Positions 25,740 through 31,848 of a stretch of 64,000 nt of DNA are shown piece after piece. The notes under the pieces are model-generated. The model had not been told where the DNA came from. It was given only the letters and a program-made list of their open reading frames with translations, and did not search any database. The DNA lies in assembly GCF_001879715.1 (NCBI RefSeq), contig NZ_MNBW01000006.1:186001-250000 (forward strand). The letters run 5' to 3'. Each line of letters starts with the position of its first letter. The first letter of the stretch is position 1. The translations under genes were made by a program, and so were the position numbers. This DNA comes from Nioella nitratireducens (GTDB lineage: Bacteria > Pseudomonadota > Alphaproteobacteria > Rhodobacterales > Rhodobacteraceae).

Positions 25740-26609
25740 TTACGATTGGTAAATATCCATGAAGGCGGGCCACGCTGCGGGATCGGCCACGGTCTTGTCG
25801 CGGCAAAAGGCGTTGCAAAAGCCGAAGACGCGGCCATCCATCTCAAGGAAGTGGGTCACGGGGGCGCCGGAATAGGGGCAGGTCGCGTTTTCCGAGGGGC
25901 CGCTCTCGACCGCCTGTGCCGCCAACGGCGGCGGCGCGGGGAAGGGGCGTCGGTCAAGCGCCATGTCGTAGAACGGCTGCTCCGGCCCCTCGACCAGGCC
26001 CATGGCACGCCACTGGCGAAACGCCGGGTGCGCCACATGCGCCTTGGCATAGGCCAGCGCCGCGCTCGAAACCGGCAGGTCATAGGTCAAAATCCGCGTC
26101 GCCACCGGGGCGAAGAACACGTCGGCCAGCGAATAGGCCCCACACAGCCATGGTCCCCCGAACCGGTCCATCGCGCGGGACCACAGCAGGTCGAGCCGGG
26201 CAAGGTCGGCGGTCACCGCATCCTCCGGCGCAAACCCCGCCCACCCGGTGCGCAGGTTCATCGGACAGGCGCCGCGCAGCCCGGTCAGGCCGGAATGCAT
26301 CTCGGCCACAAGACTCATCGCCTCGGCGCGCGCGGCGGGGTCTTCGGGCAACAGGCCGTGATCGGGGAACGCCCCGGACAGGTGCCATGCGATGGCGAGC
26401 GAGTCGGTCAGCACCCCGCCCTGCGGCGTCTTGACGATGGGCACGGTGCGGGTGTCGGGGGCGAAGGCGGCCAGATCCTTGCGGAACTGGTCGCAATACA
26501 TGCGCGTGGTCCGCACCTCGACGGGAATGTCGAAGGCGCGGAAGGCAAGCCAGCCGCGCAGCGACCAGCTTGAATAGGATTTGTCGGCAATCAAGAGGAT
26601 ATGGGTCAT
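25740..26609 (-). CDS. Glutathione S-transferase with C-terminal YHS-like metal-binding tail
   Basis: A 289-residue protein. Residues 1-230 or so form a GST: a thioredoxin-like N-terminal part starting ILLIADKSYSSWSLRGWLAF and continuing with TVPIVKTPQGGVLTDSLAIAWHL (the cis-Pro and Glu/Asp-Ser region), then the all-helical domain. The end is unusual: C244-P-Y-S-G, then about 16 residues, then FGFC265-NAFC269-RDK and VADPAAWPAFM. This resembles a YHS/TRASH metal-binding element (CxxxG...FCxxxC...DPxxW). The tail could sense or bind a soft metal or an iron-sulfur cluster; this is inferred. The gene stands between yifB and a phosphatase gene in the same direction. Confidence 0.78.
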   Translation of the reverse strand: MTHILLIADKSYSSWSLRGWLAFRAFDIPVEVRTTRMYCDQFRKDLAAFAPDTRTVPIVKTPQGGVLTDSLAIAWHLSGAFPDHGLLPEDPAARAEAMSLVAEMHSGLTGLRGACPMNLRTGWAGFAPEDAVTADLARLDLLWSRAMDRFGGPWLCGAYSLADVFFAPVATRILTYDLPVSSAALAYAKAHVAHPAFRQWRAMGLVEGPEQPFYDMALDRRPFPAPPPLAAQAVESGPSENATCPYSGAPVTHFLEMDGRVFGFCNAFCRDKTVADPAAWPAFMDIYQS

Positions 26610-26668
26610 GACCGCCAGCTAAGCCTGCCCTGCGCGGCCTGTCCAATGCCATTTTCTGACGCGGCGCA

Positions 26669-27247
26669 TCACGGGCGGTGATTGATCGCTTCGACCCGCC
26701 ATGTGCCTGACTCATGGGCAAGTCGGGTCACCGAAAGGTTGTCGATCTTGTGCCCGAGCGCGGCATAAGCCGAGCCGCCAGAGGCGCGCTGCACCTGCGT
26801 CAGGATCACCCCGATATGGGCCACCGCGACGATATGGGCTTTCGGGTAGACGGCGTTCAGCGCATCCACCACCGCGCGGACGCGGTTGGCGGCGGCGTTC
26901 CAGCTTTCGCCCTCTGGTGCGGCCACCTCGCCAGGGTCTTCCCAGTAGCGGCGGCTGAGGTCGGGGTCGCGCGCGGAAACCTCGGTGAAATGCAACCCGT
27001 CCCACGCCCCGAAGTCGAACTCTCTGAGCCCATGCGCATCGGGCAGGCGCGTGCGGCCCTCGCCCAGCACATCCGCCGTGGCGCTGGCGCGGATCAGATC
27101 AGACGCGATCAGCAGCGCGGGGCGCGGCAGCGCTGCGTCGAGCCGCGCGACCTGCGCGGTATCGGACAGGTCGGCGGGCACGTCGCGCCAGCCCACGAAC
27201 GTCTTTTCATGCGTCGGCCCGTGCCGCACCCAGTGCCACGTGGTCAT
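26669..27247 (-). CDS. Histidine phosphatase, possibly alpha-ribazole phosphatase
   Basis: A 192-residue phosphatase of the histidine-phosphatase superfamily. The phosphohistidine motif is RHG (WVRHGPTHEK) and the second catalytic His sits in VAVAHIGVI. A charged GE-rich loop (EFDFGAWDGL) precedes it, as in CobC. It lies 122 nt downstream of cobU in the same direction, so the best specific guess is the alpha-ribazole-5'-phosphate phosphatase of cobamide synthesis; a general small-molecule phosphatase is also possible. The apparent ribosome site AAGGGG before the ATG comes from a dispersed intergenic repeat (copy A). Confidence 0.75.
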   Translation of the reverse strand: MTTWHWVRHGPTHEKTFVGWRDVPADLSDTAQVARLDAALPRPALLIASDLIRASATADVLGEGRTRLPDAHGLREFDFGAWDGLHFTEVSARDPDLSRRYWEDPGEVAAPEGESWNAAANRVRAVVDALNAVYPKAHIVAVAHIGVILTQVQRASGGSAYAALGHKIDNLSVTRLAHESGTWRVEAINHRP

Positions 27248-27253
27248 GCCGCC

Positions 27254-27328
27254 CCCTTCTTCTTGGTGAAAATACTCTGGGGGAGTCGCCGCAAGGCGAC
27301 GGGGGCAGCGCCCCCGCCGGTCGGCGCC
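27254..27328 (-). repeat. Dispersed intergenic repeat, copy A
   Basis: On the minus strand this copy reads: GCGCCGACCGGC, hairpin GGGGGC-GCT-GCCCCC, hairpin GTCGCC-TTGC-GGCGAC, then TCCCCCAGAGTATTTTC and ACCAAGAAGAAGGGGGC. The ATG of the histidine phosphatase follows within 10 nt, so the element donates its ribosome-binding site. It matches copies B (31334), C (45661), D (40749) and E (49416). Confidence 0.8.
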
Positions 27329-27368
27329 GAAGGCGACGAAACCCGGAATGGACCCGCGCAGGCCACGA

Positions 27369-27896
27369 TCATTCGGCCGGTCCCTTCAACACCAAGGGCA
27401 GCCCCGCGATCACCGCGATCACCCGGTCGGCGCGGGCGGCCAGCATCTGGTTCAGCTCGCCCTGTGCCTGCCGGAACCGCCGTGCGAGCGCGTTTTCGGG
27501 GACGATTCCCTGGCCTGTTTCATTGCTGACGACGACCACCGGCGCGGCGCAGGTTTCCAACGCCGTCAGCAACGCCGCGGCTTCGGTCCGCCAGTCGCGC
27601 TCGGCCAACAGCAGGTTGCTCAGCCAGAAGGTCGCGCAGTCGAGCAGAACGACCTCGCCCGCGCGGGCCCCGGTCAGCGCCCCCGCCACGTCCAGCGGCG
27701 CCTCGACCGTGCGCCAGCCGTGGGCGGCCCTGTCGGCCTGATGGCGGGCGATCTTGGCCCGCATTTCATCGTCATAGGCCTGCGCGGTCGCGATATAGAC
27801 CCGCGCCCCCGGCATTGCCCGCACCTGCGCCTCGGCATGGGCCGATTTGCCCGAGGCCGCGCCGCCGATCACCAGTGTCAGGGAAGGGTCCGCCAT
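27369..27896 (-). CDS. cobU: Bifunctional adenosylcobinamide kinase / guanylyltransferase
   Basis: A 175-residue enzyme of cobalamin assembly and salvage. It phosphorylates adenosylcobinamide and transfers GMP from GTP to give adenosylcobinamide-GDP. Walker A is GGAASGKS near the N-terminus, and ARVYIATAQAYDDEMRAKIARHQADR is a hallmark segment. The C-terminal VVSNETGQGIVPENALARRFRQAQGELNQ closes with AGLPLVLKG. The start is the ATG at 27896 preceded by AGGAGG; the upstream frame is a shadow. It is divergent from the rpoH gene, sharing a 75-nt region, and is followed by a possible CobC-type phosphatase. Confidence 0.93.
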   Translation of the reverse strand: MADPSLTLVIGGAASGKSAHAEAQVRAMPGARVYIATAQAYDDEMRAKIARHQADRAAHGWRTVEAPLDVAGALTGARAGEVVLLDCATFWLSNLLLAERDWRTEAAALLTALETCAAPVVVVSNETGQGIVPENALARRFRQAQGELNQMLAARADRVIAVIAGLPLVLKGPAE

Positions 27897-27914
27897 CTTT
27901 TTCCTCCTTGAAAG

Positions 27915-27941
27915 TGATCCGGGCAAGCGGCCCGCCCGTAA
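27915..27941 (+). promoter_or_regulatory. ECF11 / RpoE-type promoter of the rpoH gene
   Basis: TGATCC (27915-27920), a 16-nt spacer and CGTAA (27937-27941) match the promoter form read by RpoE-ChrR (ECF11) sigma factors in Rhodobacter. The start site would fall near 27948, 24 nt before the rpoH ATG, with AGGAGG at 27961. In R. sphaeroides rpoHII is a direct RpoE target under singlet oxygen; the match here is from memory of the consensus. Confidence 0.7.
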
Positions 27942-27971
27942 CCTTAAAAAACCAGCCAACAGGAGGGCGTT

Positions 27972-28850
27972 ATGGCACTCGACCTAGACCCTGGCCAGTC
28001 ACTTTCCCGCCACGCCCGCGCGGCGGAATTGCTTGACGCGGAGACGGAGCGTGATCTTGCCATCGCGTGGCGTGACCACCGCGACGAAGCGGCGCTGCAC
28101 CGATTGATCACCGCCTATATGCGTCTCGCCATTTCGATTGCATGGAAATTCCGGGGCTATGGCGCTTCGATGAATGACCTGATCCAAGAGGCGGGGCTTG
28201 GCCTGATGAAGGCCGCCGACCGCTTTGACCCCGACCGGGGGGTGCGGTTTTCCACCTACGCGGTGTGGTGGGTGCGCGCGGGCATGCAGGATTTCGTGAT
28301 GCGGAACTGGTCGATGGTGCGCACCGGCTCGACCTCTTCGCAGAAGAGCCTGTTTTTCAACATGCGCCGGGTGCGCGCCCGGATCGAGGCCGAGGCCGCA
28401 ACCGATGGCATAGAGCTTGATTCGCATCAGGTGCGAGAGATGATCGCCAGCGAGATCGGCGTTGCGCTCAAGGATGTTGAGATGATGGAGGGCCGACTGG
28501 CCGGCACCGACTTCTCGCTTAACGCTGTGCAAGGCGATGGCGAGGACGGGCGCGAGTGGATCGAGCTTCTGGAAGACGACTCGGAACAGGCCAGCGAGCA
28601 TTTCGAACGTGCCCGCGACACCGCGCGGCTGCGGGAATGGTTGGGCGACGCGTTTGACGTGCTGACCGAGCGTGAGCGCCGGATCGTGACCGCGCGAAAG
28701 CTGACGACGCCCGCGCGCACGCTGGAAAGCCTTGGCGAAGAGCTGAACCTGTCGAAAGAACGGGTGCGCCAGATCGAGGCCGCCGCATTGGAAAAGCTGC
28801 GTCGCCAATTGTCGCCCCGAGAAGAGGAATTGCGCGCATTGATGGCGTAG
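27972..28850 (+). CDS. RNA polymerase sigma-32-type factor, RpoHII-like
   Basis: A 292-residue alternative sigma factor of the heat-shock group. Region 2 has LITAYMRLAISIAWKFRGYGASMNDLIQEAGLGLMKAADRFDP and VRFSTYAVWWVRAGMQDFVMRN. The RpoH box is present as QKSLFFNMRRVRARI, and region 4 ends with LGEELNLSKERVRQIEAAALEKLR. Compared with RpoHI it lacks the usual N-terminal LNRYM-x-E opening and has a more divergent middle, which together with the RpoE-type promoter just upstream points to RpoHII. That factor directs repair and antioxidant genes in photo-oxidative stress. The next gene, chaN, is 39 nt downstream. Confidence 0.85.
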   Translation: MALDLDPGQSLSRHARAAELLDAETERDLAIAWRDHRDEAALHRLITAYMRLAISIAWKFRGYGASMNDLIQEAGLGLMKAADRFDPDRGVRFSTYAVWWVRAGMQDFVMRNWSMVRTGSTSSQKSLFFNMRRVRARIEAEAATDGIELDSHQVREMIASEIGVALKDVEMMEGRLAGTDFSLNAVQGDGEDGREWIELLEDDSEQASEHFERARDTARLREWLGDAFDVLTERERRIVTARKLTTPARTLESLGEELNLSKERVRQIEAAALEKLRRQLSPREEELRALMA

Positions 28851-28889
28851 GCGGTTGTCCCTGCTGCCGATTGCCGTTTGAGTGCGTGC

Positions 28890-29738
28890 ATGTTGAAAAT
28901 CCTTGCAACCTGTCTGGCCCTTGCCCCCGCGATTGCGGCGGCGGGGCCTTTTTCGTCCGTGGATCAATTGCGTGGCGCGGATGTGGTGGTTCTGGGCGAA
29001 GTGCATGACAATCCCGCGCATCATGTCTGGCAGGCAGAGATGCTGCGCGCATTGACCCCGGCGGCGGTGGTGGTCGAGATGCTGACGCCCGATCAGGCGG
29101 CGCGGATCACCCCCGCGTTGCGTGACGACCCCGATGCGCTGGGCGTGGCCGTTGGCTGGGCCGGGTCGGGCTGGCCGGACTATGCGCTCTACCGCCCGGT
29201 GTTCGCGGCACTGGGAGCGGCGGAGGTCTATGGCGCGGCGCTGCCGATAGACGACGTGCGGGGGGCGATTGGCACGGGCGCTGCGGCGCAATTCGCGGGC
29301 GATCCGTCGCGGTTCGGGCTGGACCGGGCGCTGCCCGGCGCGCAACAGGCCGAGCGCGAAGCGATGCAGCGCGCGGCCCATTGCGGGATGCTGCCCGACG
29401 GAATGCTGGGCGGTATGGTCGAGGCGCAACGTCTGCGCGATGCCGCCTTTGCCGCGACGGTGCTGCGCGCCCTGGATGAGACCGGCGGGCCGGTGGTGCT
29501 GATCACCGGCAACGGCCATGCGCGCACGGATTGGGCGGTGCCCTTCATGATCGGGCAGGCCGCGCCGGAGGTGGACGTGATCGCCGTCGGGCAATTCGAG
29601 ACACCGCCTGACGCGGCCGTGCCATTCGATCAGTGGCGAGTGACGGACCCGGTGGATCGCAACGATCCTTGTTCCGTCTTCGACGAGTCCCGGGCCGGTC
29701 GGGCCGTTTCGGGAAAAGGCGGGACCAGCCGGGGCTGA
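28890..29738 (+). CDS. ChaN family haem/iron-related exported protein
   Basis: A 282-residue protein of the ChaN superfamily; a Campylobacter ChaN lipoprotein binds haem and helps iron uptake. It begins with a signal sequence (MLKILATCLALAPAIAAAG) without a lipobox Cys, so it is likely periplasmic. The domain opens with VVVLGEVHDNPAHHVWQAEML, the conserved GE-x-H-x-x-x-x-H region, and ends with GPVVLITGNGHARTDWAVP, both landmarks of the family. The ATG at 28890 is chosen since it begins the signal peptide; a TTG four codons earlier is less likely. It lies 39 nt after rpoHII and may share its transcript. Confidence 0.8.
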   Translation: MLKILATCLALAPAIAAAGPFSSVDQLRGADVVVLGEVHDNPAHHVWQAEMLRALTPAAVVVEMLTPDQAARITPALRDDPDALGVAVGWAGSGWPDYALYRPVFAALGAAEVYGAALPIDDVRGAIGTGAAAQFAGDPSRFGLDRALPGAQQAEREAMQRAAHCGMLPDGMLGGMVEAQRLRDAAFAATVLRALDETGGPVVLITGNGHARTDWAVPFMIGQAAPEVDVIAVGQFETPPDAAVPFDQWRVTDPVDRNDPCSVFDESRAGRAVSGKGGTSRG

Positions 29739-30131
29739 GGCATTCTCGGGCTGGGACGGTGCGGGTGGGGCCAGAGGGCCCGTTGCGCAGGAAAAAAGCG
29801 GCGCCGCTTCAGGGGCGCGCGGACTGTGGTCATTTGCGAAAGCTTTCGGTGCCGATGCTGCCTGCACCCTCATCGGGTGGTCTTTGGCGGCGGGCAGACC
29901 GTGCCACGCTGATCTTTGGTATACCGCGGGTGATCTTGGCACGGATTTCCGAAGAAACCGTTAACGTTGGTTTGTGAGTGTGGTTTCGACGCGCTGACGC
30001 GCGCCGACCGGCGCGGCCCCGTTGCCTGACGCCGGGTGCTTTGGGGACCAACCCAGGGGGACGGTGGCTTGTCGCGCTGACCGGGGCGGAATAGGTTGAC
30101 CGGCAGGACGAGACCCAAGGGCGGAGACCCC
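29739..30131. other. 393-nt intergenic region between chaN and coaBC
   Basis: No gene is supported here. It holds the palindrome AAGCGGCGCCGCTT at 29796-29809 (possible chaN end). It also holds a GC block at 29989-30018 beginning CGCGCTGACGCGCG, which recurs with one mismatch at the head of repeat copy C (45661-45690). No convincing promoter pair was found for coaBC. Confidence 0.6.
29989..30018 (+). repeat. GC-rich 30-nt block shared with the head of repeat copy C
   Basis: The block begins CGCGCTGACGCGCG and continues CGACCGGCGCGGCCC. The same 30 nt occur at 45661-45690 with one substitution, where they lead into a full copy of the dispersed repeat. Here the rest of the repeat is absent. 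Confidence 0.65.
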
Positions 30132-31331
30132 ATGCTGGCGGACAAGCGCATTCTTTTGATCATCGGCGGCGGAATCGCGGCCTTCAAGGCGTTGGACCTG
30201 ATCCGCCGCCTGCGCGAGCGCGGGGCCAGCGTGACCCCGGTGCTGACCAAGGCTGCGGAGGAGTTCGTGACGCCGCTGTCAGCCTCGGCCCTGGCGGCGC
30301 ACAAGGTTTATCGCGATCTGTTCGACCTGACCGACGAGGCCGAGATGGGCCATATCGAGCTGAGCCGCGCTGCCGATCTGGTGGTGGTGGTGCCCGCCAC
30401 CGCCGACCTGATGGCGAAAATGGCGCAGGGCCATGCGAATGATCTGGCCTCGACCCTGCTGATGGCCACCGACAAGCGCGTGCTGATCGCGCCCGCGATG
30501 AACGTGAAGATGTGGGACCATCCGGCGACCCAGCGAAATCTAGCGACCTTGCAGGGCGACGGTGTGCTGGTGGCGGGGCCGGTCGAGGGCGCGATGGCCT
30601 GCGGCGAGTTCGGGCCGGGGCGCATGATCGAGGTGCCGGAGATCGTGGTGGCGATTGACGCGGCGCTGTCGGACGGGCCGCTTTCGGGACGCAAGGTGCT
30701 GGTGACCTCGGGGCCGACGCATGAGCCGATTGACCCGGTGCGCTATATCGCCAACCGCTCGTCCGGCGCGCAAGGCACGGCGATTGCCGCCGCGTTGCGC
30801 GATCTGGGGGCGAAGGTGACGTTTGTCACCGGCCCTGCCTCTGTCGCGCCGCCTGCGGGGGTGCGGGTGGTAAAGGTCGAGACCGCGCGCGAGATGCTGG
30901 CGGCGGTCGAGGCGGGCTTGCCCGCCGATGCGGCGGTGTTCGCCGCCGCCGTGGCCGATTGGCGCGTCGCCAATGCGGCCGACCGCAAGATGAAAAAGAC
31001 CGAGGGCGCAGGCAGCCCGGCGCTGGAGTTCGCCGAGAACCCCGACATCCTGAAGACCGTTGCGCAGATGGAGGTGGGGCGGCCCGGCCTTGTGGTGGGC
31101 TTTGCCGCCGAAACCCACGATGTCGAGGCCAACGCCACCGCCAAGCGCGCCCGCAAGGGCTGTGACTGGATCGTGGCCAACGATGTCTCGCCCGCGACCG
31201 GCATCATGGGCGGCGCAGAGAACAAGGTTTCGATCGTGACGGCGGACGGGGTGGAGGACTGGCCGCGCCTGTCCAAGGACGAGACCGCCCGGCGGCTGGC
31301 CATCCGCATTGCCGAGGCGATCTCTGGCTGA
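30132..31331 (+). CDS. coaBC: Bifunctional phosphopantothenoylcysteine decarboxylase / phosphopantothenate--cysteine ligase
   Basis: A 399-residue two-domain enzyme making 4'-phosphopantetheine on the way to coenzyme A. The flavin-binding CoaC half opens [21 protein letters not shown] and includes [28 protein letters not shown] and the catalytic-Cys motif [10 protein letters not shown]. The CoaB half begins [24 protein letters not shown] and has AAAVADWR and a KMKK lysine patch. The ATG at 30132 follows GGCGGAGA. It is followed by dut, a neighbour often linked in bacteria, with a repeat copy between them. Confidence 0.95.
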
Positions 31332-31333
31332 GA

Positions 31334-31373
31334 GCGGGGCCGCAGGCGGGAGTATTTTTGCCAAGAAGAAGGG
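31334..31373 (+). repeat. Dispersed intergenic repeat, copy B (short)
   Basis: The copy reads GCGGGAGTATTTTTG then CCAAGAAGAAGGGG, with only a remnant of the GC-rich leader. It fills almost the whole 49-nt gap between coaBC and dut. AAGGGG sits 6 nt before the dut ATG, so the repeat supplies its ribosome site. Confidence 0.75.
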
Positions 31374-31380
31374 GATCGGG

Positions 31381-31848
31381 ATGGTGCTGACCATCAAGGT
31401 GATGCAGGAAGACTGGGCCGACCCCGAGGTGGCCCTGCCGCGCTATGAAACGACCGGGGCGGCGGGGGCGGACCTGCGCGCCAACCTGCGGCCCGAAGAG
31501 CGGGCGGAGGGGATCGTTCTGGCCCCCATGGACCGGCGGATCGTGGCGACAGGGCTGCGGGTGGAGATTCCCGAAGGTTACGAGATGCAGATCCGGCCGC
31601 GCTCGGGGCTGGCCTTCAAACACGGGGTGACGCTGGTCAATACGCCGGGGACGATCGACAGCGACTATCGCGGGCCGCTTGGGGTGTTGATGGTCAATCT
31701 CGGGGCAGAGCCGTTCCGGGTGACGCATGGCGAGCGGATCGCGCAGGCGGTGATCGCACCGGTGGTGCAAGCGGCGTTCGACGTGGGGGTGGACCTGTCC
31801 GACAGTGCACGCGGCGCCGGTGGCTTCGGATCGACGGGGCAGGGCTGA
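31381..31848 (+). CDS. dut: dUTP diphosphatase (dUTPase)
   Basis: A 155-residue homotrimeric dUTPase that removes dUTP and yields dUMP for thymidylate synthesis. All five conserved motifs are visible: AGADLRA (I), [11 protein letters not shown] (II), [16 protein letters not shown] (III), [12 protein letters not shown] (IV) and the flexible C-terminal [12 protein letters not shown] (V). The start is the ATG at 31381 behind AAGGGG from repeat copy B. Its stop overlaps the start of the next gene by one base (TGATG). Confidence 0.95.

Follow-up and report, generated by a model that had tools for sequence, protein, structure and literature searches.

Does the rpoHII gene of Nioella nitratireducens answer to RpoE as it does in Rhodobacter (Cereibacter) sphaeroides, and is the gene behind it part of the same response? 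The window analysed here, a stretch of 64,000 nucleotides, carries a short element directly before a gene for a sigma-32-family factor, with chaN following it. In R. sphaeroides rpoHII is known to depend on RpoE, according to passages of PMC6852236 and PMC3441632, and predicted RpoE promoters precede many regulon members across species, as a passage of a review covering the 2008 analysis by Dufour has it. The preliminary description of this DNA proposed the same wiring here, with the chaN product as a possible part of the same response.

The promoter element and the genes around it

An ECF11-type promoter, made of TGATCC, a 16-nt spacer and CGTA, lies 57 to 31 nt upstream of the rpoHII ATG at 27972; the preliminary description had TGATCC-N16-CGTAA 31–57 nt 5' of the ATG, which is exact to the base on the sequence read at 27900–27980. 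The intergenic region is 75 nt long and common to rpoHII and the divergent cobU, whose ATG (27894–27896, minus strand) is separated from the −35 element by 18 nt. The features of the locus are:

27369–27896, minus strand: cobU (cobP), divergent neighbour (NF004469, 187.7 bits)
27915–27920, plus strand: −35 element TGATCC of the ECF11 (RpoE) promoter, read in the sequence
27937–27941, plus strand: −10 element CGTAA, after a 16-nt spacer, read in the sequence
27948, plus strand: predicted transcription start, about 7 nt past the −10 element
27961–27966, plus strand: Shine-Dalgarno-like AGGAGG of rpoHII, read in the sequence
27972–28850, plus strand: rpoHII, sigma-32-family factor of RpoHII type, 292 aa (NF005693, 404.4 bits, cut-off 315)
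28890–29738, plus strand: chaN, ChaN/Tiki-superfamily protein, 282 aa (PF04187, 1.6e-39)
30132–31331, plus strand: coaBC, next conserved gene downstream (TIGR00521, 387 bits)

The predicted start at 27948 is placed by the usual distance from the −10 element to +1, and the figure of 24 nt for the leader presupposes a start at about this position. From CGTA to the ATG the window and closely related loci have about 31–33 nt, whereas Ruegeria and many others have about 57 nt; the short form also occurs in L235 (window 27915–27972 compared with L015–L032). A search of 26500–31500 against Rfam returned no family at gathering score, and a riboswitch or other RNA element at the locus was rejected on that result. 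The spacing of the element is identical to that of the R. sphaeroides promoter form TGATCC(N15)GCGTA given in a passage of PMC5036791.

The gene at 27972 was assigned to the RpoHII type, as first described, because its 404 bits with NF005693 (RNA polymerase factor sigma-32, PRK07500) beat the 293 and 257 bits of the two RpoH matches that come next in this genome. Its product contains Pfam sigma regions 2 and 4 and reaches 271 bits with the rpoH equivalog TIGR02392, under the cut-off of 323. At least three genes of the RpoH family are present in the genome (G000), two further ones being at C12:132640-133437 and C3:29357-30136; the third copy, on C3, has an NF005693 score (257 bits) that sets it off from the RpoHII gene as well as from the C12 copy. 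A cobC-like phosphatase gene sits behind cobU. Downstream, coaBC (queried with TIGR00521 from an upstream TTG at 30096) starts 393 nt after chaN, and its membership in the transcript is no part of the claim made here.

Conservation of the element before rpoHII

Conservation was assessed in the 80 nearest rpoHII loci in named genomes, among the matches listed. TGA[TA]CC-N15-17-CGTA occurs 56–110 nt before the start in 77 of these 80 listed loci, and the spacer is exactly 16 nt in 76 of the 77 site-bearing loci listed, though 15 to 17 were allowed. The −35 box in those 77 is TGATCC in 60 and TGAACC in 17, and the three loci lacking the strict site (L039, L071 and L087) show variants at the same place, judged by eye. 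CobU is divergent in 60 of the 80 nearest matches listed.

Position and conservation carry the evidence, and the bare string is weakly informative. In the 64-kb window TGATCC-N15-17-CGTAA has a single match, and 100 dinucleotide shuffles of the window gave a mean of 0.03 matches, with at least one match in 3/100. Genome-wide, TGATCC-N15-17-CGTAW has 12 sites versus 0 for a reversed control that contains the rare CTAG, while the loose TGAWCC-N15-17-CGTA has 24 sites versus 24 control sites, showing no enrichment; the loose motif thus failed as a genome-wide regulon finder. When 21 of these 24 loose sites were examined for downstream starts (L141–L143 were left out), six sites and the rpoE site had a start codon within 220 nt downstream, counting ORFs of at least 70 aa with a Shine-Dalgarno-like box. 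Placed near a start, the motif becomes rare by chance: shuffles of the related upstream regions yield TGA[TA]CC-N15-17-[CT]GTA near the start at about 0.001 per region (about 0.1%), and the 160-nt regions 5' of other ATG-initiated ORFs of at least 150 aa in the same 80 loci contain the motif in 2/1068 cases.

RpoE-ChrR and the joint loss of site and regulator

The preliminary description depended on the genome encoding an ECF11 sigma factor, and rpoE-chrR was found. There is one ChrR match (TIGR02451, 194.5 bits, cut-off 124.5), which scores 143.7 bits with the narrower model NF051881, under its cut-off of 300, and an ECF sigma gene lies directly upstream of chrR. This sigma factor is above the cut-off of the general sigma70-ECF model and below those of narrower models; its assignment as the putative RpoE (ECF11) comes from the ChrR neighbour and not from an ECF11-specific model. 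A flavin amine oxidase gene is divergent from rpoE, with two opposed ECF11 sites in the interval that separates them, and another site lies 80 nt upstream of folE2. The flavin oxidase gene occupies the position of the RSP_1087-1091 operon of R. sphaeroides and is, by this position, a putative RSP_1091 homologue. The published 15-gene RpoE list of R. sphaeroides includes rpoE, chrR, RSP_1091, folE2 and rpoHII (PMC7074977, Table 1, a part of that source).

Whether the site goes with ChrR was surveyed in the window's family. The family sample comprised 395 genomes, with ChrR over the cut-off in 315 and any ChrR match in 337. The ChrR-lacking set (n=75) combined the 58 genomes that have no match at all with 17 of the 18 whose matches were weak, G150 being left out, and the ChrR-positive set consisted of 38 hand-picked genomes. 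RpoHII over the cut-off is kept in 33/38 ChrR-positive versus 37/75 ChrR-lacking genomes (20/37 plus 17/38; Fisher p 8e-5). The ECF11 site precedes rpoHII in 26/33 sampled ChrR-positive loci (23/30 plus 3/3), whereas it does so in 8/37 ChrR-lacking loci (5/20 plus 3/17), a difference with a Fisher p of 3e-6. Seven of the 33 ChrR-positive genomes lack the strict site, and two of these have TCATCC in its place, by eye. RpoE itself was matched at E 1.4e-49 or better in 15/15 ChrR-positive genomes tried; among the ChrR-lacking genomes 10/37 show a match when the threshold is E 1e-20, but only two show one better than E 1e-30 (G314, 50% identity; G457, 42%).

Since relatedness could inflate these counts, independent pairs were compared on the RpoHII tree. 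The best tree (68 rows) holds about 22 independent pairs differing in ChrR (mean of 500 runs), of which 12.7 differ in the site the same way, 1.5 the opposite way and 7.8 show no difference (median p 0.003, range 0.0005–0.057). The site is conserved before the orthologues and lost with RpoE-ChrR, with supported branches alone giving 4 independent pairs (0.7 same, 1.0 opposite), too few to decide. As read from these genomes, the family-wide sign is that genomes retain or give up the promoter along with the sigma factor.

Eight ChrR-lacking genomes keep an ECF11-like site (G119, G451, G460, G291, G457, G286, G342 and G205; loci L145, L148, L152, L156, L159, L179, L187 and L190). An RpoE-like match at E 1e-20 is found among them only in G457 (L159, 42%) and, weakly, in G205 (L190, 37%), and the sites may be relics, may reflect missed regulators or may serve another ECF sigma factor.

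A class-wide set, with each locus from another family and the window's own genome included, gave the site in 12/22 ChrR-positive versus 1/8 ChrR-lacking loci (p 0.09); the other 10/22 ChrR-positive genomes are without the strict site before their best rpoHII-type gene. In G028, the one ChrR-lacking genome that breaks the pattern, two contigs end in fragments of ChrR, and counting it as ChrR-positive gives 13/23 versus 0/7 (p 0.01). A TCGASTCGA-like element was seen by eye within about 160 nt upstream of the RpoH genes in L102, L115, L116 and L118 of the class-wide set.

chaN as a probable second gene of the unit

The rpoHII gene ends at 28850 and the chaN ATG is at 28890, a gap of 39 nt, as had been described. 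ChaN follows rpoHII directly in 68 of the 80 nearest loci listed; in the 12 listed loci without an adjacent chaN, coaBC comes straight after rpoHII in nine and further off in one, chaN lies further off in one, and neither gene is found in one. An ATGA overlap joins the rpoHII stop to the chaN start in 47 of the 68 adjacent pairs listed, in 14/20 of the ChrR-positive pairs and in 12/23 of the ChrR-lacking pairs; gap lengths were computed from the most upstream start and so lean to overlaps, and the ATGA count is stricter. These overlaps suggest co-transcription and translational coupling of the two genes. Given the adjacency and the ATGA overlaps, chaN probably belongs to the RpoE-driven rpoHII unit, a reading that synteny in relatives supports.

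It is unlikely, by our estimate, that chaN stands outside the response, as a gene merely downstream with its own promoter or silent. Such an arrangement would fit the gap in the window, which has no stop/start overlap, the 12 of 80 listed loci in which chaN is not adjacent, and the linkage itself, which is about as common without ChrR (23/37 sampled loci) as with it (20/30). Against it stand the ATGA overlaps, found with and without ChrR, and the 39-nt gap, in which a terminator-like site was looked for and not found. Judged from gene order, the linkage of chaN to rpoHII is independent of the ECF11 wiring.

The product belongs to the ChaN / Cofac_haem_bdg family: it scores 136.6 bits with PF04187 (cut-off 27.7), and the best fold match of its AlphaFold model (mean pLDDT 89) is the ChaN of C. 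jejuni (2g5g; E 6.4e-10, TM 0.61/0.66), followed by HopBA1 and erythromycin-esterase-like proteins. A profile search against the PDB also returned 2g5g (E 3.2e-13), and a single-sequence PDB search gave no match. The C. jejuni protein, a haem-binding lipoprotein, thus shares the Pfam family and the fold, but identity over the fold alignment is 18%. The N-terminus looks, by eye, like a signal peptide. Across 17 aligned ChaN rows G36, E37, H39, D40, H44, H45, H164, C165, G207, G209 and H210 are invariant; these GE.HD...HH, HC and G.GH positions of the rpoHII-linked group fit a metal or haem site in the predicted protein. We propose, tentatively and with more doubt than confidence, that chaN is a conserved, often coupled second gene of an RpoE-driven rpoHII operon in Rhodobacteraceae, and that ChaN would be an effector, exported from the cytoplasm, that handles haem or metal (or is a hydrolase of the Tiki type) and acts in concert with RpoHII to limit the oxidant damage caused by free haem, even where there is no photosynthesis.

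Other readings of the element

It is very improbable that a different sigma factor accounts for most transcription of rpoHII, with the TGATCC site secondary. The candidates would be EcfG, acting in general stress through a GGAAC-type box (GGAAC is the −35 box of EcfG/RpoE2), or RpoH itself. A GGAAC-N15-18-[CT]GT[AT] box does occur in 9/37 ChrR-lacking and 5/30 ChrR-positive sampled rpoHII loci, compared with 0.8–1.4% in shuffles, and in 2 of the 80 nearest loci listed; in the held-out ChrR-lacking set it is present in 4/17, again above shuffles. The window has TTGAAA at 27908–27913, just upstream of TGATCC. However, the 75 nt between cobU and rpoHII show no GGAAC box, a search of the window's genome for NepR found none, and among tree-based pairs the box is unrelated to ChrR (4.8 same, 4.0 opposite, p 1). 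Nor is TTGAAA kept in the close relatives L010–L012 and L027, on which ground autoregulation by RpoH through this hexamer was rejected, and no sigma-70-like site was found in 27800–30200. A swap of sigma factors, with a GGAAC/EcfG box replacing the ECF11 site in ChrR-lacking relatives, was also considered. NepR is present in all nine ChrR-lacking genomes with the box (loci L144, L149, L157, L161, L162, L174, L176, L180 and L181), but overall it is found in 32/37 ChrR-lacking and 21/30 ChrR-positive genomes; because NepR is common anyway and the box fails to track ChrR, the swap is not claimed.

That the element is a chance match or belongs to cobU is scarcely credible: the intergenic region is short and shared with cobU and the loose motif is no commoner genome-wide than its control, but in 77 of the 80 listed loci the site keeps its place before rpoHII, its spacing and its orientation, which already argues against both, and the site is kept also where no cobU was found adjacent (L014, L034 and L044).

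Proposed wiring and its setting

We return to the ECF11-type promoter read by RpoE, a reading that we hold with high confidence. RNA polymerase with RpoE (sigma-E) would recognize the element at 27915–27941 once RpoE is released under stress from ChrR, the anti-sigma factor encoded behind rpoE; ChrR would be the sensor here and would be broken down when singlet oxygen or organic hydroperoxides stress the cell. Freed RpoE would then transcribe its own operon, the divergent flavin oxidase gene, folE2 and rpoHII; chaN would be read from the rpoHII transcript, and RpoHII would in turn switch on a larger second tier. The R. sphaeroides-like wiring of the preliminary description gains support from rpoE-chrR in the genome, from the site in 77/80 listed loci and from its tracking of ChrR, all of which are genomic observations.

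The cascade of R. sphaeroides matches this one in the TGATCC-N16-CGTA form of the promoter, in rpoE-chrR with a divergent target and in folE2 and rpoHII as targets. It differs in its setting, as R. sphaeroides is a phototroph whereas a PF00124 search found no photosynthetic reaction-centre protein in this genome; singlet oxygen from the organism's own photosystem is therefore unlikely, and need not be the signal. The bearer of the genome is probably non-phototrophic, and the phototrophic setting of R. sphaeroides probably does not carry over. Passages of PMC6852236 report that ECF11 systems respond to organic hydroperoxides as well and are present in species that do not photosynthesize. The second difference is chaN, which lies behind rpoHII here and is absent from passages of PMC4344238 and PMC7074977, including the published 15-gene RpoE list in the latter. 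In the literature searched, as far as its passages go, we found no report of an rpoHII-chaN unit, which does not prove that none exists. The Rhizobiales, in which rpoH2 is under sigma-24 control (a passage of PMC4843759), likewise place a second RpoH gene under an ECF sigma factor. The locus studied here differs by its TGATCC −35 box, where EcfG/RpoE2 promoters have GGAAC, and NepR was not found in this genome.

The wiring of RpoE to rpoHII is already known, and this locus is an ordinary, sound further case that leaves the understanding of the RpoE response as such unchanged. With it, a cascade that was proved in a single phototroph reaches a relative that is apparently not phototrophic, and chaN is singled out as a likely partner of RpoHII: the response may have an unstudied arm in this neighbouring gene for a haem-type protein, which usually follows in the rpoHII unit.
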